Shown one piece after another: positions 334 to 8,421 of a stretch of 8,481 nt of DNA. Origin of the DNA: Anaerolineales bacterium UBA877 (GTDB taxonomy: Bacteria > Chloroflexota > Anaerolineae > Anaerolineales > Villigracilaceae); contig DBFP01000026.1 in the NCBI GenBank assembly GCA_002294405.1, forward strand, positions 1,698 through 10,178, in the 5' to 3' direction. The notes beneath the pieces are model-generated. The model saw only the letters and a program-made list of their open reading frames with translations, had not been told where the DNA came from and searched no databases. How positions within the stretch are numbered: the stretch's first letter is position 1; every line of letters starts with the position of its first letter. The position numbers and the translations under genes were made by a program.

Positions 334-340
334 ATATGCA
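334..340. repeat. Left copy of a putative 7-bp target-site duplication
   Basis: ATATGCA abuts the inverted-repeat tip that starts at 341. The identical 7-mer directly follows the IS right end at 6603. A 7-8 bp duplication falls within the range I recall for some IS4-family groups. Confidence 0.55.
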
Positions 341-482
341 CTGGTGATTACCCACAAGTCAAAAAACCGCCTGTGTTCTGGGCATTTTGCCAATTTGACC
401 TGGATTTTTGCCCCAGATATGCCGTAGTCAAGGGTTTGTCCTGCCCAAATATGGAGGCAACAAAGATGTGGGTAATCATTAG
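341..482. repeat. MITE-like element or decayed IS ends
   Basis: The left tip (341-360) shares 20 bases with the left end of the nearby IS. The right tip, read on the minus strand from 482, is CTAATGATTACCCACATCT, an imperfect copy of the same terminal repeat (15 of 19 positions agree). The interior has no similarity to the IS that I can see and no convincing coding sequence, so it behaves like a non-autonomous derivative that the IS transposase could recognise. It holds an imperfect hairpin (378-384 with 409-416) and, read on the minus strand, a T6 run (366-361) about 11 nt past that stem. It might therefore also end transcription of the peptide cluster, whose last stop codon lies 5 bp away at 488. 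The flanks of this 142-bp piece show no target duplication of their own. Confidence 0.55.
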
Positions 483-487
483 AGCAT

Positions 488-1240
488 TTAACCTTGACTC
501 CCTCGCCAGTCCAGGCCCTTCTCTACAAAGACAAATGACACCAATGAGATGGCAACGAGGACAAGTATGCTAATCCAGGTTGAGAAGCTCACCTGTCCGG
601 TTAAACTATCCCGGAGTGCCTTTGCAACATAAGTCGTTGGTATCAGAGCTGAAGTGAGTTGCAACACTTTGGGGAGTCGCTCTAGTGGAACGAAGACGGG
701 GGATAAAAAGATGATGAGAGGCTGGATAATCTGGGTTAACAGACTGGAGATCCGGCCATTGGGACTGTAGAAACCAATGATCGCTCCTAAGCCAGACAGG
801 GAATATCCACCCAGGAGTAAAACAATCAGAGTCAGGGGGTGGGGGTTCAGCGAAATGTTAAAAAGCCATGTGCCAAGTATTAGAAGAATGGCAATTGACG
901 GCAGAGCCAACAGCACAGAGCGGGTCACAATAGCCAGAATCAGTGCGGATCTAGAGATGGGTAATGTTGCATAGTAGTCAAATGCATGGTCGTCTTTCAG
1001 CCATCCCAGATCCTGGCCCAGGGATAACATAGAACTCAAACTCAAGCTCAAGACGATGTTGCCCGTGATCAGATAGATGGTAATAGACTCGTTTGAAGGC
1101 CCCATTAAGAAGCGAATAAACAGCAGCAACGTCAATGGTTGCAGGCTCATCATGACCAAGTACCAAAACCAACCCGTCCGAAGTGTGAAGAGTTGCGTCC
1201 ATAGTAGAACCAGGAAAGCCTTACTCCATTTTACATGCAT
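488..1240 (-). CDS. ABC-2 type transporter permease of the peptide cluster
   Basis: This is a 250-residue, strongly hydrophobic protein with about six membrane segments (roughly residues 24-45, 52-75, 98-127, 135-158, 165-186 and 222-240). That is the size and layout of ABC-2 membrane subunits that pair with a separate ATPase. The loop after the second segment, with DYYATLPISRSA near residues 88-99, is typical of this class, where a coupling helix meets the ATPase. The ATG at 1240 has GAGAGGA about 8 nt upstream. The gene lies 35 bp after the ATPase gene and closes the operon. Its probable role is export of the mature peptide or removal of it from the membrane for self-protection; sequence alone cannot separate these. 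The MITE-like element begins 5 bp beyond the stop codon. Confidence 0.9.
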   Translation of the reverse strand: MHVKWSKAFLVLLWTQLFTLRTGWFWYLVMMSLQPLTLLLFIRFLMGPSNESITIYLITGNIVLSLSLSSMLSLGQDLGWLKDDHAFDYYATLPISRSALILAIVTRSVLLALPSIAILLILGTWLFNISLNPHPLTLIVLLLGGYSLSGLGAIIGFYSPNGRISSLLTQIIQPLIIFLSPVFVPLERLPKVLQLTSALIPTTYVAKALRDSLTGQVSFSTWISILVLVAISLVSFVFVEKGLDWRGSQG

Positions 1241-1275
1241 GATGACGTCCTCTCTCCAGAATACGTGACTATGAC

Positions 1276-2211
1276 CTATTCGATCCGAAGCTGGCTACCA
1301 TTGAGTGCGAGGTACACATCTTCCAACGAAGGAGGCAGAACCCGGAGATCGTCCATGTTCTCTAGCCCAATCTTGTAAACAAGACTCTCAATGCCGCTAC
1401 AAACTTCATCCGGCCGGACCATCACGCGCCAGTATCCATCCGGCATAGGCTTTGCTTCTAAGCCATTCAAACCTGGTCTCACGCTCCCATTTTTCAGGTG
1501 AAACTCCAACCGCACTTGAGAGGTGACTTGGGCCTTTAGTTCATTAGGCGTTCCCAAAGCAATAATGCGTCCATTGTCGACAATAGCCACTCGAGTTAGC
1601 ACCTGCTCGGCTTCCAGCACGTTATGAGTAACAAAGATCACTGTCACACCCCGTTGTTCTCGCAATTGACTTAAGGTGTCCCAGATCAGCCGACGGGCAA
1701 CTGGATCAAGGTTATTCGTAGGTTCATCCAACACTACCACTGGGCGGTAGGCAATCAGAGCAGAGGCAATCCCGACGAGTTGTTTTTGTCCGCCGCTCAG
1801 GTTCACCACAAGCCGCTTGGATAGGTTGGCCAAATGAAGTCGCTCCAACAGTTCGTCCGTTTGGACATTGGCCTCTTTTACCGTTAGGCCTCGCAAAATT
1901 CCCGTGTAGAGAACTGCCTCTCGCACTTGGTAGGCACGGAGCGACATCAGCGTTTGGGATAAGTAGGCAACGTATTGAGGGATCACATCTGTTTCTCGGA
2001 CAATGTCTCTTTCGAAAAGACGGAGGCTACCGGTTGTTGGATGCAATAACCCGACCATTTGTTTAATCAGTGTTGTCTTGCCGGCACCATTCGGACCGAG
2101 CAGCCCAAAGGTTTCGCCCTGGCATATATCTAGGCTAATCTCGTTGTTAGCAACTACGCCGTTCTTATAGACCTTGGTCAAATTGTGGATACTATATGTA
2201 ATTGCGGTCAT
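1276..2211 (-). CDS. ABC transporter ATP-binding protein of the peptide cluster
   Basis: The 311-residue protein has all the nucleotide-binding motifs in order: Walker A GPNGAGKT (39-46), Q-loop Gln86, signature LSGGQ (138-142), Walker B VVVLDE (158-163) with the following D-loop, and the switch histidine in VTH (195). After about residue 220 comes an 80-90 residue C-terminal extension common in ATPases that serve ABC-2 permeases for drugs and bacteriocins. It should drive the permease encoded 35 bp downstream. Its ATG lies inside the end of the M16 peptidase gene (20-bp overlap), which suggests translational coupling and linked expression of peptidase and transporter. The ATPase class is certain; the cargo is inferred from the neighbours. 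Confidence 0.95.
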   Translation of the reverse strand: MTAITYSIHNLTKVYKNGVVANNEISLDICQGETFGLLGPNGAGKTTLIKQMVGLLHPTTGSLRLFERDIVRETDVIPQYVAYLSQTLMSLRAYQVREAVLYTGILRGLTVKEANVQTDELLERLHLANLSKRLVVNLSGGQKQLVGIASALIAYRPVVVLDEPTNNLDPVARRLIWDTLSQLREQRGVTVIFVTHNVLEAEQVLTRVAIVDNGRIIALGTPNELKAQVTSQVRLEFHLKNGSVRPGLNGLEAKPMPDGYWRVMVRPDEVCSGIESLVYKIGLENMDDLRVLPPSLEDVYLALNGSQLRIE

Positions 2212-3523
2212 GGTAACCTAGTCCTTTTAAATACGCTATCAATCTATCAGCGGCATGTAACGGGCCAATTGCTACCACGCAAAAACGGTCAGGGTGCAGA
2301 CGGTCACGGAGAGCCGTGTTTACATCATCTAATGTAACTCTATCCACATCGGTGAGAATGTCAAGAATGTCTCGGACCTGACCATCTAATAAAAGGCTCT
2401 CTCCTAGCAGACAGGCATAATTCTTGGCATTCTCTGCACCCAAGCGAACTCGTCCTTTATAGAATTCCTTGGCACGAATCAGTGTTTCCAGGGTCATTCC
2501 CTCGCGTGCAAGAATCTCCATCTCACGAAAGATGGCTTCAATGGTAGCAACACCGTGCTCCGGACTCACACCTGTATAGATGGTAAATGCTCCCGCGTAT
2601 CGAAACATACTCAACGTAGTATGTACAGAGTAAGCGAATCCCTCCTTGGTTCGTATTTGGTCAAAGAATCGCGAACTCATTCCTTTGCCTAACATAACAT
2701 TGATCATTTCGAAGGCGTAACGAGCCGGATGTTGCCGGCCAGGTGTTTGGGTTCCAAGGCAGATATGAAGCTGTTGCAAGTCACGTACCTGAAATGAGTA
2801 GAAGGGTGAGTTCATTGGGCGGACGCTCAATGCAATTGGCTCTGCCTCAGACCGATTAGGCATTCCATTGGGCAAATCGGTAAAATACTTCTGAACCTCG
2901 TGGCTTGCATGCTCGTCCGAAATATTTCCTACGACAGCAATCACAATATTATGCGACTGGTATCTACGTTGGTAATATTCTACAATCTCTTGCCTACTTA
3001 GTTGACGTACAGTATCTTCGGAACCGCCGACATAACGTCCCAATGACTGCTTTGGCCAGAGCGTTTCACTTAACAAAGCATAAACCCAACTTGCTGCATG
3101 GTCATAGTGCTTCTTCAGTTCTTGCAGAATGGCAAGACGCTCACTCTCCACATCCTCTGCTCGAAATAAGCTGTGGCTCAACAGTTCGCCCAGAACATGG
3201 ATGGTCGTTGGGAAATGTTCGGCCAAACATCGTGCCCAGTAGCAGGTTCCTTCGCGCTCACTAAACGCATTCAGTATACCTCCCGTTGATTCTACTACCT
3301 GGGTCAACTGTTTTTTTAAAGGAAATAAGGTGGTTCCCGCGAACAACAGGTGTTCAACAAAGTGATTGACCCCATGGGTCATCTCAGTCTCGTAAATAGA
3401 ACCTGCTCTGACCCACACAGCAATTGTTACTGATTCGATACACAGTAACGGACGTGTAATTCTGTAAATGCCATTGTCCAACCGTGTTAGGCTCAAGGTA
3501 TTTTTCCAGAGGAAGTGATCCAT
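2192..3523 (-). CDS. M16-family zinc peptidase, likely leader peptidase of the cluster
   Basis: The 443-residue protein has the inverted zinc motif HFVEH (residues 54-58: His54, catalytic Glu57, His58). Glu135 in LAILQEL is 77 positions after His58, where M16 enzymes place the third zinc ligand. The C-terminal half has the matching inactive domain with FFDQIRTKEGFAYSVHT, the Arg/Tyr region of the family. Its length fits a single-chain, two-domain processing-peptidase type enzyme. M16 enzymes of this size sit in RiPP operons, for example AlbE/AlbF of subtilosin and PqqF/PqqG-type proteins of PQQ synthesis. Here it most likely cuts the leader from the modified 49-residue precursor. I prefer the ATG at 3523 (AGGGA 7 nt upstream) over an in-frame GTG at 3547 without a good ribosome-binding site. 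The stop overlaps the ATPase start by 20 bp. Confidence 0.92.
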   Translation of the reverse strand: MDHFLWKNTLSLTRLDNGIYRITRPLLCIESVTIAVWVRAGSIYETEMTHGVNHFVEHLLFAGTTLFPLKKQLTQVVESTGGILNAFSEREGTCYWARCLAEHFPTTIHVLGELLSHSLFRAEDVESERLAILQELKKHYDHAASWVYALLSETLWPKQSLGRYVGGSEDTVRQLSRQEIVEYYQRRYQSHNIVIAVVGNISDEHASHEVQKYFTDLPNGMPNRSEAEPIALSVRPMNSPFYSFQVRDLQQLHICLGTQTPGRQHPARYAFEMINVMLGKGMSSRFFDQIRTKEGFAYSVHTTLSMFRYAGAFTIYTGVSPEHGVATIEAIFREMEILAREGMTLETLIRAKEFYKGRVRLGAENAKNYACLLGESLLLDGQVRDILDILTDVDRVTLDDVNTALRDRLHPDRFCVVAIGPLHAADRLIAYLKGLGYHDRNYI

Positions 3524-3564
3524 AAGAGTGTCCCTACACGCTGACACCTTTGAAATGGGGTTCT

Positions 3565-3715
3565 CCTCAGATTAGTGGGGGAAACCAGCAGATATTACTC
3601 CCCGTCATCGGTATTTGCCCATATCTGGATAAAAGCATTCACATTGGGCATAGGTGGGATATGGTTGCGGTTCAACCAAGGAAGTGGTTAACTTTACCCC
3701 ACCAATCTGATGAGG
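3565..3715. repeat. Inverted-repeat element between the maturase and peptidase genes
   Basis: The 229-bp gap between these two genes is the only long one in the operon. It holds an inverted pair: CCTCAGATTAGTGGGG at 3565-3580, and at 3697-3715 a sequence whose complement reads CCTCATCAGATTGGTGGGG. They agree apart from a 3-base gap and one substitution. The 151-bp unit could be an old MITE-like insertion with unrelated ends to the IS, or an RNA structure that shifts expression between maturase and transport genes. Inside it a smaller stem, GGTTG/CAACC in the transcript sense, is also visible. No T-run follows, so it does not look like an intrinsic terminator, and I see no gene in the gap. Confidence 0.5.
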
Positions 3716-3752
3716 GCCGGAAATGGTTGAGTGCCTGAAGTGTCAAGAGGCC

Positions 3753-4844
3753 TTAAGTGGGAAATTCGTAGGAACAATCTTTCGTGGGGTTAAGCATTGC
3801 ATAGCGTGGAAACAATCCAGCCTGATAGAAGGACTGACATGTCGGCTCCGGTGCATACAGATCTCCACTGGAGAGGTAGTAGGCACTAGCGCGGCAACGG
3901 CCGCGACAGACGTTTGCTGCTAAGCAGTTGCCGCATATTCCTTTCAAGTTTTCGACGGAAATACTCCGCAGGGTTTGATAAAACTCCGATTCCCAGATCT
4001 CCTCCAGAGAATGGGTGCGGATGTGTCCTCCCCACAAACCGGGAGCATCTTCTATCCGTTCACATAATCCTATATAACCATCCGGGCTCATTCCCATGAG
4101 CGTGAACCCCCATGGACAAATAGGTTTAGTTTTAAGGTCCGGCGGTATCAACGCGATGGGCAGATCAACATGGACATATCTTGTTTGGCGCATCCAAGGA
4201 AAGATGACTCTGCACAAGAACTGATGTATTTCATTGACTGATAAGGCCAGTCCTTGATTTTCTCTGGCACGGCCTTGCGGGGACAGAATGAGAATGCGAC
4301 TCGTAGCGCGGAGATCCTTCAGGACGAACTGTATCAAAGATGGTATTTCTCCGATATTGAGTTTATTCAGAACAGTGATAACCTGTAGTGGGAAACCGAC
4401 TTCACGCAAGTTTCTAATCCCTTTCATCGTCAATTCAAAGCAACCCAGTACCCCTCTGAGCGATTCATGCGTACTCGGACTGATACCATCCAGACTGACG
4501 GCGAAGAATATATTGCGGTCAATCGCCGTAAGTTGCTGGACTCGCTCCTGTGTAAGAAAGGTCCCGTTCGTTTCAAATGAAACCCTGCATCCTTTCCCGA
4601 CTGCATGCTTGACGATCTTGATCAGATCTTTTCGCATGAAAACTTCGCCACCCGTAAACGTAATGGCTTGTACGCCCAGTTCGACTCCTTGGTCAATGAC
4701 CCGAAATACATCTTCGGTTTCCACCTCCCATTTCACAGGCTTACCGGCGGTCACATAGCAATGAGCGCACCGCAAATTGCAAGCCATCGTTGCACTGATT
4801 GTAAAGCTTTTGAGTTTGTGAATTGATCGATTTTGTTGCGACAT
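3753..4844 (-). CDS. Radical SAM/SPASM peptide maturase
   Basis: The 363-residue protein starts with the radical SAM cluster motif CNLRCAHC (Cys22, Cys26, Cys29), followed by the SAM-binding GGE motif (65-67) and SLDG (117-120). The C-terminus is a full SPASM domain: Cys243-x12-G-x4-Cys261, then CGNC-x5-C-x3-C (304, 307, 313, 317) and Cys336. These residues can hold two auxiliary iron-sulfur clusters, with an extra Cys357 near the end. Such enzymes modify ribosomal peptides by hydrogen abstraction, for example AlbA (Cys thioethers), PqqE and MftC. The substrate is almost surely the Cys-rich peptide encoded 49 bp upstream. I chose the ATG at 4844 with a modest AAGGCGGG upstream; an in-frame TTG at 4868 would overlap a T-run and looks wrong. 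Only 21 residues precede Cys22, so there is no N-terminal leader-binding (PqqD-like) domain as in AlbA. Confidence 0.95.
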   Translation of the reverse strand: MSQQNRSIHKLKSFTISATMACNLRCAHCYVTAGKPVKWEVETEDVFRVIDQGVELGVQAITFTGGEVFMRKDLIKIVKHAVGKGCRVSFETNGTFLTQERVQQLTAIDRNIFFAVSLDGISPSTHESLRGVLGCFELTMKGIRNLREVGFPLQVITVLNKLNIGEIPSLIQFVLKDLRATSRILILSPQGRARENQGLALSVNEIHQFLCRVIFPWMRQTRYVHVDLPIALIPPDLKTKPICPWGFTLMGMSPDGYIGLCERIEDAPGLWGGHIRTHSLEEIWESEFYQTLRSISVENLKGICGNCLAANVCRGRCRASAYYLSSGDLYAPEPTCQSFYQAGLFPRYAMLNPTKDCSYEFPT

Positions 4845-4866
4845 AACATTCCCGCCTTGCAGAATC

Positions 4867-5113
4867 AAAAACGAACGGGGTTAGGCACCTATTTCACGTC
4901 GGGCTGTTTCCCATACTGCAGCCACTGGCACAACAGTAATCTTCAATCTGTTGGTCGAGTTCGCTGATGCGTTTCAGCAATTCAATTCGCTGTTGTTCTT
5001 CTTCATCTGATAGTCCTTGAATTCCAACATCTTGCTCGTTCATGAGTGTCCTCCTTTATGGTTTTTGACGCTTTTTACGTATGAAACGTGAAGCACCAGC
5101 CCAACCCCGTTCG
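4867..5113 (-). promoter_or_regulatory. Long-range inverted repeat enclosing the precursor gene, with T5 run
   Basis: In the transcript sense CGAACGGGGTTGGGC (5113-5099) sits at the very 5' end of the mRNA predicted from the promoter. GCCTAACCCCGTTCG (4886-4872) sits just after the precursor stop codon. The two can form 15 consecutive RNA pairs with a single G-U wobble, closing a loop that contains the whole precursor gene. TTTTT follows at once (4871-4867), ahead of the maturase gene. This may act as a partial terminator or a stabilising clamp that yields far more precursor transcript than enzyme transcript. The repeat is plain in the sequence; the role is inference. Confidence 0.45.
4894..5043 (-). 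CDS. Cys-rich RiPP precursor peptide (49 aa)
   Basis: This short gene has the strongest translation signal of the cluster: AAAGGAGG (5050-5057) placed 6 nt before the ATG at 5043. The product has an acidic leader with GLSDEEEQQ at residues 10-18, then a predicted amphipathic helix with hydrophobic residues at I20, L22, L23, I26, L29 and I33. The C-terminal core, DYCCASGCSMGNSPT (35-49), has cysteines at 37, 38 and 42. Leader-plus-core form, small size, first place in the operon and the adjacent SPASM maturase, M16 peptidase and ABC exporter together mark it as the substrate of the pathway. The likely modification is one or more thioethers from the cysteines to nearby residues (sactipeptide or ranthipeptide type), but ring pattern and cleavage site cannot be read from sequence. 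I do not recognise a named family for this core. Confidence 0.82.
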   Translation of the reverse strand: MNEQDVGIQGLSDEEEQQRIELLKRISELDQQIEDYCCASGCSMGNSPT

Positions 5114-5121
5114 GGATAGTA

Positions 5122-5150
5122 ATTATATTTCAAATCTCGGAATGTGTCAA
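5122..5150 (-). promoter_or_regulatory. Consensus sigma-70 promoter of the RiPP operon
   Basis: On the minus strand a perfect TTGACA (5150-5145) is followed after exactly 17 bp by a perfect TATAAT (5127-5122). Initiation would fall near 5115, giving a leader of about 70 nt before the precursor ATG at 5043. Such an ideal promoter implies strong expression that depends little on activators, unless a repressor or the repeats just upstream modulate it. Confidence 0.85.
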
Positions 5151-5174
5151 TGGTTCGCATTCTGGTTCGCATTC
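5151..5174. repeat. Two tandem 12-bp repeats abutting the operon -35 box
   Basis: TGGTTCGCATTC occurs twice in a row (5151-5162 and 5163-5174). On the operon strand this is GAATGCGAACCA twice, ending directly at TTGACA. The outer copy shares its last base with the tip of the IS. Direct repeats in this place could bind a regulator, or may be a simple tandem duplication at the IS junction. Confidence 0.65.
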
Positions 5175-5192
5175 TGGTGATTACCCACAAGT
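5174..5192 (+). repeat. Left terminal inverted repeat of the IS
   Basis: CTGGTGATTACCCACAAGT is the exact complement of the right end at 6585-6603 and is identical to the tip at 341-359. Confidence 0.92.
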
Positions 5193-5208
5193 CTGATGGT
5201 TGAAAAAA

Positions 5209-5267
5209 AGCTCTGTTCGAAGTGGTAAAGTAGGTTTGTGAACGCTACAACCACCAGGAGCAGAGCT
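5209..5267 (+). promoter_or_regulatory. Fold-back structure around the transposase ribosome-binding site
   Basis: AGCTCTG (5209-5215) and CAGAGCT (5261-5267) are exact complements. TGGT (5223-5226) and ACCA (5250-5253) can extend the structure inward. The transposase ribosome-binding site AGGAG (5256-5260) lies between the two right-hand arms. A transcript that enters from outside the IS would fold here and hide the site, a known way for IS10 and IS50 type elements to limit transposase made by read-through. That function is inferred by analogy. Confidence 0.45.
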
Positions 5268-5270
5268 GCC

Positions 5271-6596
5271 ATGAATATAGCATTGGAAAATAAATTTGAC
5301 AAGTTGCCGATTGTGGAAATTACGAAAAGCATAGAAAACCACATTTACCCGTTATTGGGAATGTTGCCAGACAAGCGCATGAAAACTGTGATTGCGCAAA
5401 TGGTTCTGGGCATTCTGGGCGGACAAACGCCGCTGATTACCGGCATGGCACGCTCGAATACGAAAGAGAACGGAGAGACCTGGGCAGTTGCCAAACGGAT
5501 GTACCGGTTGATGGCGAACGAACGGCTGAAGACTGGTGTCATCTACAGTGGTTTGTATCAGGTCGGGCAGAGGGTGGTGGAGAGTGAAAACCCTGACTAT
5601 CTGGTAGTGGCGGTGGATCCAGTGAATTTTGAGAAACCCTACACGGAAGCGTTGGAAGGGGTGAGTATTGTTCACAAATCGACCCCGCCGGATTTGACGG
5701 GACATGCCCGTCTGACACATGGCTATCCAGCCATCACGGCGACCATCGTAAATACCAAAGTGCCAGTCACCAGTTACGCCAATTGGTTTTCGTATCAAAC
5801 GGCTGACTTTATCAGCCAGAATAAAGAACTGGAACAGGCTTTTGAGACGACCTATCGGCTGTATTGGGGCCGAAACATACGTTTTGTGGGCGATTCTGGG
5901 CTGGATGACCAGAAAATATTCACTCAGGTTGGAAAACTGAGACAGAAATTTACCTTTCGGGTCAGCCATTTGGAGCGCATAGTGGAAGTTTACAACGAGC
6001 GTCTTGACTGCTGGGAAACAGAAAAACTGCAAGACCTGGTGGATAGTGTTCCCCATCAGGTCACCTTCCAAGTGCTATTCAAGCACGCCGGAGAAACCAG
6101 ACTCGACACACTGCATTTTGGCTGGTTCAAGGTGCGAATTCCAGGCACACAAGAACCGTTGTGGATCCTGGTTGCCGATGACGAAACTTTGAACAGACAA
6201 TTGGTCTTGATTACCAACCTCCCACTGACCACCATCCCTGTCGTTCAACAGGTCTATAACGATTGGCGTTTGCGAACTCGCATTGAACACGGCTATCGTT
6301 TCGATCAGGAACAAGGTTTGGATGTCGAAGATATGCGGGTCCAAACCGTTGAGCGCATGCGCCGCTTGTTCGCAGTCGTTCTCATGGCGGCTCAAATTGT
6401 CTTTGTCGTTTCTGAACAATGGCCGCCCAAAGCAGTTCTTTGGCTTCGGCAATTGGGCGGTAAATTGGGTATCCCTACCGACCGCGATGGCCCTTATTGG
6501 CTCCTGCAAGGTATCTCGGCTGTCATTATCACTTGCATGACCTTATCTTTCACTCTTTTGCACCCCTTCCCTTTTCAGGAGTTCACTTGTGGGTAA
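5271..6596 (+). CDS. IS4-like DDE transposase
   Basis: The 441-residue protein cuts and joins DNA at the terminal repeats of its element. Likely catalytic residues are Asp116 in VVAVDPVNFEKP, Asp208 in FVGDSGLDD, and Glu339 in WRLRTRIEHGYRF, where the spacing R-x3-E matches the C-terminal IS4 signature although the usual tyrosine is a tryptophan (W332). A long beta-rich insertion lies between the second Asp and the Glu, as in IS4-type enzymes. The ATG at 5271 has AGGAG 10 nt upstream; an in-frame GTG at 5238 would add 11 residues and is less likely. The stop codon (6594-6596) lies inside the right terminal repeat. Probably the enzyme can also act on the tip at 341 and so mobilise the peptide cluster. 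Subgroup is uncertain. Confidence 0.92.
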   Translation: MNIALENKFDKLPIVEITKSIENHIYPLLGMLPDKRMKTVIAQMVLGILGGQTPLITGMARSNTKENGETWAVAKRMYRLMANERLKTGVIYSGLYQVGQRVVESENPDYLVVAVDPVNFEKPYTEALEGVSIVHKSTPPDLTGHARLTHGYPAITATIVNTKVPVTSYANWFSYQTADFISQNKELEQAFETTYRLYWGRNIRFVGDSGLDDQKIFTQVGKLRQKFTFRVSHLERIVEVYNERLDCWETEKLQDLVDSVPHQVTFQVLFKHAGETRLDTLHFGWFKVRIPGTQEPLWILVADDETLNRQLVLITNLPLTTIPVVQQVYNDWRLRTRIEHGYRFDQEQGLDVEDMRVQTVERMRRLFAVVLMAAQIVFVVSEQWPPKAVLWLRQLGGKLGIPTDRDGPYWLLQGISAVIITCMTLSFTLLHPFPFQEFTCG

Positions 6597-6603
6597 TCAC
6601 CAG
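6585..6603 (-). repeat. Right terminal inverted repeat of the IS and of the larger unit
   Basis: It reads ACTTGTGGGTAATCACCAG on the plus strand, an exact complement of both 5174-5192 and 341-359. It encodes the last codons and stop of the transposase. Confidence 0.92.
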
Positions 6604-6610
6604 ATATGCA
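6604..6610. repeat. Right copy of the putative 7-bp target-site duplication
   Basis: ATATGCA directly follows the IS right end and equals 334-340 next to the left tip of the larger unit. It lies in the short space downstream of the msrQ stop codon. Confidence 0.55.
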
Positions 6611-6664: not shown

Positions 6665-7324
6665 TTACCTGAGCGCCATCCCAGATCTGTTGCGCAGATT
6701 GACGACCAGGCGCCTGACCGGGGGCAGGCGCAAGACCAGCAACAACAGGAGCAATACCCCCCATGAGAGCGGCTGCAGGATGTCACCACTGAGGCGAAAG
6801 AGATCCCCCTTCTTGGCCCAGGCATAATGGATAATATCCAGGACGCCAGCCAGGTAGATCAGCCGGTGAAGGTTGGTCCACCAGCGGCCAAGTTTCTTCT
6901 TCCACCAGCGAAAGGAAGTAACAGCCAGGGGGAGCAAGAGCAGGTAGGTGGCAAATCCGACGATGGCGTAAGGCTTTTTCAAAACTATTCCACCGATCAA
7001 CTGCAGGTTGAAGCCATAATCAATCCCGATAAAGGTCAGTACGTGCAGATTGGCATACAAAAAACAATAAAGCCCCAGGGTTCTCCGTCGCTTGAGAGGT
7101 TCCCTCCACCCAGACAGCGTGTACAGAGGGGTGCATGCCAGTGAGGCGATCAGGAAATAGACGGCAATATGCCCCAGGCGCTGCTCGACATCCTGGATTG
7201 GATTGACGGATAATTTGCCGGCAAAAAATAGATAAATGATCCACATCAACGGCAGCCAACCAAGGGTGTGGATCATCACTTGCAGCCAGGTGATTTTTGA
7301 CCTTGAGATGTTAATAGTTGACAC
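6665..7324 (-). CDS. msrQ: MsrQ, heme-binding membrane subunit of the MsrPQ methionine sulfoxide reductase
   Basis: MsrQ (formerly YedZ) is a polytopic b-type heme protein that passes electrons from the quinone pool to MsrP, which repairs oxidised methionine in exported proteins. This 219-residue version has about six membrane segments and the conserved histidines of the family at His94 (ANLHVL), His153 (NLHRLIYL) and His166 (IIHYAW). Its overall similarity to E. coli MsrQ (211 residues) is clear, for example ITWLQVMIHTLGWLPL at the start. I place the start at a GTG (7324) with GGATGG upstream, which matches the E. coli N-terminus and overlaps msrP by 14 bp. An in-frame ATG at 7372 or 7342 would add 16 or 6 residues but lacks a good ribosome-binding site. 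The right end of the mobile unit lies 61 bp beyond the stop. Confidence 0.9.
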   Translation of the reverse strand: MSTINISRSKITWLQVMIHTLGWLPLMWIIYLFFAGKLSVNPIQDVEQRLGHIAVYFLIASLACTPLYTLSGWREPLKRRRTLGLYCFLYANLHVLTFIGIDYGFNLQLIGGIVLKKPYAIVGFATYLLLLPLAVTSFRWWKKKLGRWWTNLHRLIYLAGVLDIIHYAWAKKGDLFRLSGDILQPLSWGVLLLLLLVLRLPPVRRLVVNLRNRSGMALR

Positions 7325-8303
7325 GCAAATCCATCCCAGCATAAAGGTTTGCCACTTCGTCAGAGTATCCATTGAACATTAGGGTGGGGCGGCGGTTAAA
7401 TTCGCCGATGCGCCGTTCACTTGCCTGGCTCCAGCGAGGGTGATCCACCTGGGGATTTACGTTCGAATAGAATCCATATTCATTCGGTGCGATGGTATTC
7501 CACATCGTTTCCGGTCTTTGCTCAGTCAATTCGATCTTAACGATTGCCTTGATGCTTTTAAACCCGTATTTCCACGGTACGACCAGCCTTATTGGAGCGC
7601 CATCCGGGTTGGGCAGCGGCTTGCCGTATAGTCCGGTGGCAAGGATCGTCAGGCGCTGCATGGCCTCGTCCAGGCGTAACCCTTCGCTGTAAGGCCAGGG
7701 ATAAAATGGGGCGCCTTCCCCCGGCATCTGATCCTTATCCATCAGGGTCACAAAATGCACATATTTGGCACTGGTCATCGGTTGAACCACGTTCAACAGC
7801 GAAGCCAGTTCGAAGCCGGTCCAGGGGATGACCATGCTCCAGGCTTCCACGCAGCGCAGGCGGTATATGCGCTCTTTTTGCTCGAATTTGAGCAGGTCTT
7901 CCAGGGCAAAGGTTTTTGGATTTTGAACCAGGCCGCCGACCTCAACTGCCCAGGGAGTGGATTTGAAATTTTGAGACAGGGAGTTGACAGCCTCTTTGTT
8001 CGTGGAGAACTCATAATAGTTGTTGTAATTGGTAATCTCATTAAAAGTATTCAGCGGGTCGCCAAGTTCGTCGGTAGTTTGTCCCTGGGCGTTATCTGGC
8101 AACGGAGTGCCCTGGGTTGGTGCCAGCGACGGTGCTGTCGTCCCAGATCCAGATGCGGTCGTCAGTTTAACCCCACAAGCTGCCAGGAATGCGGTGCCGC
8201 TTAGAATCCCGGCGGCTTTTAAAAATTCCCGGCGGGAGAGATACAGGTTGTAGGGCGTGATCTCTGATGACGGCACGGTTATGTGTTTGAGTTTGCGTTC
8301 CAT
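7311..8303 (-). CDS. msrP: MsrP, molybdopterin methionine sulfoxide reductase catalytic subunit
   Basis: MsrP (formerly YedY) is a sulfite-oxidase-fold molybdenum enzyme that reduces methionine sulfoxide in proteins outside the cytoplasm. The 330-residue product carries a Tat motif SRREFL (23-28), then a lipobox LAAC with Cys43, so it is probably Tat-exported and anchored by lipid. A Ser/Thr/Pro-rich linker runs to about residue 75. The molybdenum-binding cysteine is Cys151 in YRLRCVEAWSM. Further family blocks are VPWKYGFKSIK, NEYGFYSNVNPQVDHPRWSQA and the C-terminal PTLMFNGYSDEVANLY, nearly as in E. coli. The ATG at 8303 is preceded by AAGGAAGGGA; an upstream in-frame ATG at 8342 has no such site. 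The 118 bp upstream (8304-8421) are AT-rich near the gene (TTGATA, TATTTT) but the spacing is 20 bp, so I do not call a promoter. Confidence 0.97.
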   Translation of the reverse strand: MERKLKHITVPSSEITPYNLYLSRREFLKAAGILSGTAFLAACGVKLTTASGSGTTAPSLAPTQGTPLPDNAQGQTTDELGDPLNTFNEITNYNNYYEFSTNKEAVNSLSQNFKSTPWAVEVGGLVQNPKTFALEDLLKFEQKERIYRLRCVEAWSMVIPWTGFELASLLNVVQPMTSAKYVHFVTLMDKDQMPGEGAPFYPWPYSEGLRLDEAMQRLTILATGLYGKPLPNPDGAPIRLVVPWKYGFKSIKAIVKIELTEQRPETMWNTIAPNEYGFYSNVNPQVDHPRWSQASERRIGEFNRRPTLMFNGYSDEVANLYAGMDLRVNY

Positions 8304-8421
8304 AGTCCCTTCCTTAAAAAAAAACCTGTAAAATAGGACCAATTCGCTCTAATTTTATCAAGTTTTGGTTAAGGAAATGTTAGAACGCCGACAGCAGAGC
8401 CACCTTTAATCTCGTATTCAA

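Follow-up and report, generated by a model that had tools for sequence, protein, structure and literature searches.

The subtilosin A alb operon, which comprises AlbA, AlbC/D and AlbE/F, places a radical S-adenosylmethionine (SAM)/SPASM enzyme, M16 peptidase, an ATP-binding cassette (ABC) ATPase and a permease around a short Cys-containing precursor. The pyrroloquinoline quinone (PQQ) pathway (PqqA/E/F) also has an M16-type peptidase, and its chemistry involves a Tyr in the core. The subfamilies of streptococcal RaS-RiPPs (WGK, NxxC, GGG etc.; RiPP, ribosomally synthesized and post-translationally modified peptide) combine a short precursor with a SPASM enzyme and a transporter and have motif-defined cores. 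Thioethers are a frequent outcome for the Cys-containing cores of SPASM enzymes, as stated in the review PMC8326336. Here we analyze five genes on the minus strand of an 8,481-nucleotide stretch of contig DBFP01000026.1 from Anaerolineales bacterium UBA877, called the window throughout, which share features with each of these systems. They probably, though by no means certainly, encode a radical SAM RiPP pathway of a small and apparently undescribed family that is carried as cargo of a composite element derived from an insertion sequence (IS).

Gene content and precursor peptide

The preliminary description of this locus had listed a Cys-rich precursor of 49 residues, a SPASM maturase, an M16 peptidase, an ABC ATPase and a permease, all on the minus strand behind a consensus promoter. 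All five open reading frames (ORFs) were found in place (Table 1) and, apart from the short peptide which has no Pfam domain, contain the expected domains (Radical_SAM, E 4.8e-27, and SPASM, 3e-08, in the maturase; Peptidase_M16, 1.4e-28, and Peptidase_M16_C, 6.4e-37, in the peptidase; ABC_tran, 8e-30, in the ATPase; ABC2_membrane, 1.6e-13, in the permease). The promoter-like site was recovered as well. It is the best of 11 sites returned by a scan at a looser threshold, and as shuffled sequences yield 7.2 sites at this threshold, only its perfect match to the consensus is notable.

The ATG of the precursor gene is preceded by a strong ribosome-binding site (AAAGGAGGACACTC). We presume that the leader comprises residues 1-35, with an amphipathic stretch (LLKRISELDQQIED), and that a core of about 14 residues begins at Tyr36 (YCCASGCSMGNSPT). 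A search of 5.8 billion proteins with the precursor returned the window's own entry (P0001), P0002 (88% identity) and P0003 (69%), and a profile search added P0124 (72%) and P0125. The latter is a shorter reading of a peptide (46/44% identity) which was found independently beside the maturase of L001, a locus in a Candidatus Bipolaricaulis metagenome-assembled genome (MAG). Because of these relatives we regard the precursor as more than a chance ORF. The relatives share the motif Y-C-C-x-x-G-C-S-x-G at identities of 44-88%, and twelve residues (S12, L23, R25, I26, E28, Y36, C37, C38, G41, C42, S43 and G45) are invariant in all six rows of the alignment, in which P0125 and L001 represent the same peptide.

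The core had been called unfamiliar in the preliminary description, and indeed no NCBIfam model matched it. A precursor with YCC-x-x-GC or with YNCRRG, the ending found in a related group from Bacilli (see below), was not found described in the titles and abstract openings searched, which did not include the core motif itself as a term and are no proof of its absence from print; 'ncrrg' was not found in the accessible part of PMC12703449. Viral contigs gave 28 pattern matches and no relative of the precursor, and plasmids gave no match.

As to the transcription of the genes, a single transcript would cover all five, with three reservations. The maturase and M16 genes are separated by a gap of 205 bp, this gap contains an imperfect inverted repeat (3565-3580 / 3697-3715, CCTCAGATTAGTGGGG / CCCCACCAATCTGATGAGG), a candidate for a sequence derived from a miniature inverted-repeat transposable element (MITE-like) or for a regulatory one, and an inverted-repeat arm with a T-run tail follows the precursor gene. 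The ATPase and M16 genes share 20 nt where the M16 gene ends. The 5′ arm of the repeat enclosing the precursor gene sits at the predicted transcript start, and the corresponding RNA panhandle has a z of -2.97 with one of 200 shuffles as good. A conserved panhandle is, however, not claimed, as 18 of 500 shuffles do as well as the arms alone, and the counterpart in L001 is worse than 493 of 500. The N-terminal extension of P0002 reads RTGLG, the same as the 5′ arm would, and this arm may be conserved in P0002. Rfam gave no match in the window up to E 1.

Table 1. Features of the window; positions count from its first nucleotide.
Feature	Position	Strand	Basis and remarks
Promoter-like site TTGACA-17-TATAAT	5122..5150	-	sigma-70-like, 12/12 consensus match; function predicted
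Precursor peptide, 49 residues	4894..5043	-	relatives P0002, P0003, P0124, P0125/L001
Inverted repeat enclosing the precursor gene, long-range	4872..5113	-	arms 5113-5086 and 4899-4872; 3′ arm followed by TTTTT
Radical SAM/SPASM maturase, 363 residues	3753..4844	-	Pfam, Cys positions, structure model
M16 metallopeptidase, 451 residues	2192..3547	-	Pfam M16 and M16_C, motif spacing; 3hdi is the closest PDB sequence
ABC ATPase	1276..2211	-	Pfam; Walker A, signature, Walker B; best NCBIfam score DrrA
ABC-2 permease	488..1240	-	Pfam
MITE-like left end, 142 bp	341..482		perfect 19-bp IS end 341-359, degenerate inverted copy 467-482
IS4-like insertion sequence, 1430 bp	5174..6603	+	perfect terminal inverted repeats of 19 bp; transposase ORF at 5238-6596
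7-bp direct repeat ATATGCA, left copy	334..340		just outside the outer IS end
7-bp direct repeat ATATGCA, right copy	6604..6610		just outside the outer IS end

The maturase and its relatives

The preliminary description had named precursor homologues beside maturase homologues as supporting evidence, and this arrangement was found in L001. The gene order there is a CRP/FNR-family regulator, precursor, maturase (48% identical to that of the window), a truncated ATPase, ATPase (43%) and permease (40%). The order of the genes for precursor, maturase, ATPase and permease is therefore the one seen in the window, although L001 comes from another phylum. While the conserved precursor beside a SPASM enzyme was read in the DNA for the window and L001, in two further pairs, P0003/P0006 and P0124/P0007, precursor and maturase probably share a contig, because the longest contigs of both partners have the same size (2743 and 44497, respectively). 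P0004, P0005, P0008, P0009 and P0010 lie outside this neighbour check. A small-ORF search for CC-spaced-GC motifs in the collected loci gave 8 rows, and precursors beside a maturase were present only in L001 and its copy L098. The truncated second ATPase of L001 is located at 7794-8252, and two CGAACG-N4-CGTTC dyads at 6004-6041, between the regulator gene and the precursor gene, are possible operator sites.

In a tree of 124 maturase rows, from which P0015-P0017 were left out as near-copies, the window clade (10 rows) has a support of 99 in the Shimodaira-Hasegawa-like approximate likelihood ratio test, and a support of 94 is obtained for the 18 rows that unite it with the Bacilli group and P0012-P0014; the 2 heme-named and 22 ScmF-named proteins lie outside this union. 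In a second tree of 55 hand-chosen rows, from which 5 of 28 further loci proteins obtained in the species scan described below (L027, L030, L037, L044, L059) were dropped as too long, the corresponding values are 100/97 (9 rows) and 98/94 (15 rows). Seven rows of the latter tree are labelled heme, of which only P0091 and P0093 are so named and the other five grouped with them in the 124-row tree. The maturase is placed outside the heme-labelled rows in both trees, and the 49-residue frame is kept beside the L001 maturase, the sole window-clade relative read as DNA. Hence neither of the two outcomes which the preliminary description had named as speaking against the cluster, a maturase within a non-peptide SPASM group and a frame lost in relatives, has appeared. 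With a conserved peptide beside the maturase and a clade of its own, the RiPP cluster that had been suggested is very probably genuine, and it belongs to a rare family.

Two archaeal names came up around this clade. P0008, a window-clade maturase (57% identical), carries the name of a Candidatus Methanomethylicaceae archaeon MAG, which reflects either a transfer between domains or mis-binning. L002 (Brockarchaeota) was rejected as a family member, as it falls outside the clade in both trees. Its stretch 9911-14735 contains a SPASM enzyme near a Cys-rich ORF of 61 residues (ACTPGTCGTGNCEAGYC), a TldD-like protease and an ABC transporter and is a possible archaeal RiPP cluster.

Window-clade maturases were detected in none of 400 Chloroflexota genomes, in none of 400 genomes of the order to which genome G078 belongs and in one of 100 Bipolaricaulota genomes, which is the L001 genome itself (E 1e-60; in the two samples of 400, which overlap in genomes, up to 5 candidates were scored per listed genome). 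A scan of 84,980 species, each represented by one genome, gave at least 587 stretches, of which at least 537 were confirmed, and of the 80 loci kept one, again L001, belongs to the window clade. Among viral contigs the maturase profile found 17 weak relatives (best E 2e-14, 23% identity) and none at the family level.

The maturase has the radical SAM cysteines C22xxxC26xxC29 (CxxxCxxC) and seven SPASM-type cysteines (C243, C261, C304, C307, C313, C317 and C336). It starts with ATG, and an alternative TTG at 4868 is also in the open frame; the radical SAM domain begins about 17 residues past the ATG (25 in the longer reading), and there is no N-terminal extension of the size of a RiPP recognition element (RRE). 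The matches to the AlbA and SkfB models start at profile positions 116 and 105, respectively, and the maturase therefore lacks their N-terminal part of about 100 residues, which we take to be the RRE. Its scores stay below every curated cut-off among the NCBIfam models listed (AlbA 80.7 bits, cut-off 850; SkfB 91.6, 300; StsB 123.7, 625; PqqE 106.6, 381.35; mycofactocin 123.2, 265; WgkB 128.8, 650; ScmF 155, 400). SCIFF (cut-off 425) and PapB (340) are absent from the 25 models listed of the 94 that match it, the lowest of those listed having 76.3 bits. The SynChlorMet ScmF proteins are related SPASM enzymes which occupy a separate part of the 124-row tree, and the streptococcal WgkB model is likewise missed by far. 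The accessible part of PMC13361665 gives 16 motif names for the streptococcal RaS-RiPPs, none of which is YCC-x-x-GC or YNCRRG; CGG and CGx, compared by name, could overlap CCGxGC by letters.

The AlphaFold2 model of the maturase has a predicted local distance difference test score of 92.2. Its first 14 structural matches are peptide-modifying SPASM entries only, namely SkfB, which ranks first, PqqE, which ranks second, SuiB, ChlB and 5why/5wgg, and the nucleoside-type enzyme BlsE as well as MoaA come after these. The entries 5why/5wgg are described as sactipeptide thioether formation, and we take the enzyme to be CteB. Among PDB sequences PqqE is the best match and SkfB the second. PADLOC, applied to three proteins, matched the maturase with viperin models and returned nothing else, an assignment which we did not adopt.

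The related group from Bacilli was found in 4 of 288 genomes of the order of genome G006, G006 included (E 1e-70). In all four loci (L003, stretch 8896-12367, and L106-L108) the maturase gene is immediately preceded by an ORF of 25 residues, which has a purine-rich ribosome-binding site. Its consensus MxKxEFLKKVxKMSxGQVxYNCRRG ends in YNCRRG, with the Tyr opening the last six residues. An arginase-family gene precedes the ORF (Pfam hit in the two loci tested, comparable ORFs in the other two), and behind the maturase lies a second radical SAM gene (Pfam tested in L003 only). In contrast to the window there is one core Cys, and no M16 or ABC-2 gene is present in the stretch between the arginase-family gene and the second radical SAM gene. 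When the two precursor types are aligned without gaps, the best alignment spans leader and core and brings Y-x-C-x-x-G into register; its score of 27.9 was reached in none of 1000 column shuffles, the highest of which gave 26.95. From these aligned residues we take Y-x-C-x-x-G, with moderate confidence, to be a shared site of recognition and modification. Among NCBIfam models the Bacilli relative scores highest with WgkB (144.8 bits, cut-off 650). Possibly the Bacilli cluster makes an ornithine-containing radical SAM peptide. All four loci show, by eye, a hairpin-like repeat behind the precursor.

Insertion sequence ends around the operon

The ends of an IS which bracket the operon are an addition to the preliminary description. 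A 19-bp end (CTGGTGATTACCCACAAGT) is present in three perfect copies at 341-359, 5174-5192 and, inverted, at 6585-6603; the window contains no fourth copy with up to three mismatches, and 200 shuffles gave none. The transposase of 452 residues matches the NCBIfam model IS4 weakly (27.3 bits, cut-off 152). Annotated transposases on Thermus plasmids are among its relatives, and transposases sharing 49-59% of its residues were found in 4 of 201 genomes from the order of G078. The IS copies of two of these four were checked (L115, L116), and both have near-identical ends.

Because of the three identical ends and the ATATGCA copies just outside the outer pair, the operon looks like the cargo of a composite transposon. 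The simplest reading of the sequence is that the 6263-bp unit 341-6603 was inserted as one piece. As in a composite transposon, cargo lies between IS ends and one putative target duplication is found at the outer ends; two complete IS copies, however, are not present, the left end being the short MITE-like piece. The patchy distribution of the family was counted in favour of the cargo reading. The unit is located between a peptidase-like gene (a fragment of 100 residues without Pfam hit, presumably of M20 type) and a gene which we take to be msrQ-like.

Proposed pathway and alternative readings

We propose that the maturase, which has no RRE-sized extension, would bind the amphipathic leader directly and, with SAM and its auxiliary Fe-S clusters, would introduce one or more cross-links at the invariant Tyr-x-Cys-x-x-Gly. 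Our best guess is a thioether from the Cys sulphur at Y-x-C, and a Tyr-based link would also be allowed; the presence of a sactionine cannot be inferred from sequence. The two extra cysteines of the window family possibly form further links or a metal site. Going by their families, the M16 peptidase (HFVEH at 62-66 and E143, a Glu 77 residues past the last His of the motif, so that the zinc motif is intact) would remove the leader and the ABC-2 pair would export the short product and may give self-protection. Gene content, conservation and clade are thus observed, and each step of chemistry, cleavage and export is a proposal. Should the core carry the proposed modification, the locus would be a compact radical SAM pathway of few genes with a 49-residue substrate and no evident recognition domain, convenient for studying how SPASM enzymes choose residues, and the shared Y-x-C-x-x-G could be probed directly by mutation. 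The locus would then also clearly exemplify RiPP genes that travel between IS ends, and their absence from the sampled relatives would be explained. As a more speculative extension, which we offer tentatively and would not expect to hold in full, the window and Bacilli groups may read one code, a short amphipathic leader bound without RRE and then Tyr-x-Cys-x-x-Gly, and may perform one new radical SAM reaction, e.g., a Tyr-Cys cross-link, with mobile elements spreading the window type between phyla and with a precursor-maturase pair that stays conserved as the peptidase and tailoring genes around it are exchanged.

The preliminary description had equated the gene set with the minimal sactipeptide pathway and seen in it a reduced alb operon, and neither equation was borne out. 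The set of precursor, SPASM enzyme, M16 peptidase, ABC ATPase and permease is alb-like, SkfB is prominent among the structural and PDB matches, and a Cys plus Gly/Ser-rich core would suit thioether donors and acceptors; yet the maturase lacks an RRE-sized N-terminal part and is far under the AlbA, SkfB and StsB cut-offs, and the single M16 protein is not conserved in L001. In addition the short presumed core, YCC-x-x-GCS, compares with 26-44 residues in known sactipeptides (PMC8326336). A true sactipeptide with Cys-to-alpha-carbon thioethers as in subtilosin and an exported bacteriocin as product is therefore possible but doubtful, and we regard the cluster as a variant of the radical SAM RiPP clusters without filing it as a sactipeptide. 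The high ranks of PqqE, a weak match of the M16 protein to PqqF (65 bits, cut-off 320) and the Tyr kept in both precursor types, near the end in the Bacilli type, would fit a route like that of PQQ or mycofactocin, with modification of the invariant Tyr and M16 trimming that frees a tiny Tyr/Cys-derived redox or metal-binding molecule. We consider this unlikely, because among nine window proteins scanned none gave a PqqD hit with Pfam, which an RRE can escape, no cofactor-dependent dehydrogenase is evident in the window, L001 instead shares an exporter with it and the PqqE and mycofactocin models are well below cut-off. That the SPASM enzyme serves tetrapyrrole chemistry next to an incidental short ORF appears very improbable to us. 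The highest NCBIfam raw scores do belong to models of the heme d1/b class (NirJ, Ahb) and not to a peptide maturase (NirJ2 164.7 and AhbD 162.1, cut-off 500 each), but the placement in the trees answers the worry arising from this list, in which all scores are far below cut-off; furthermore the short ORF is conserved beside the maturase, and no heme-synthesis domain was present among the nine proteins.

Apart from these heme-type scores several observations weigh against our preferred reading of a small RiPP family carried by a composite element. The next larger group of the 124-row tree, which encloses the window and Bacilli clades (42 rows, support 82), holds both heme-named proteins, the root being for drawing only. 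In the comparison of the precursor types the 29-residue region for the shuffles was chosen by hand, and hhalign found the same register with weak values (P 0.0075 and 0.012, probability 5.2 and 3.5%). Besides the window, window-clade DNA was readable at one locus only, L001, and no M16 relative was found in the L001 genome, which may be incomplete; with precursor, maturase and exporter common to both loci, the M16 peptidase looks accessory. Concerning the mobile unit, the two flanking genes keep their order and orientation in G078, where other ORFs separate them. No second site of the unit was found and, among six relative regions, no clean empty site, the left flanking gene being present in L109 only, with other ORFs between the flanks. 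The IS ends could also bracket the operon through two independent insertions, the operon never having moved as a unit. In favour of this, by eye, a flanking repeat is absent from the related IS copy L115 and at most imperfect in L116, but the 7-bp repeat stands around the outer pair of ends, whereas the sequences beside the IS alone differ (TCGCATT vs ATATGCA), and we judge two insertions to be rather improbable compared with the insertion of one composite unit.

To the right of the unit, at 6665-8342, the window contains a pair of genes for a protein with a molybdopterin oxidoreductase domain and a sub-threshold twin-arginine match and for a ferric-reductase-like membrane protein, which we presume to be MsrP- and MsrQ-like. 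In keeping with a host that probably belongs to the Chloroflexota, the MsrP-like protein is 73% identical to its counterpart in G078 and has matches in 69 of 301 genomes of the Chloroflexota, the only phylum searched (E 1e-90).

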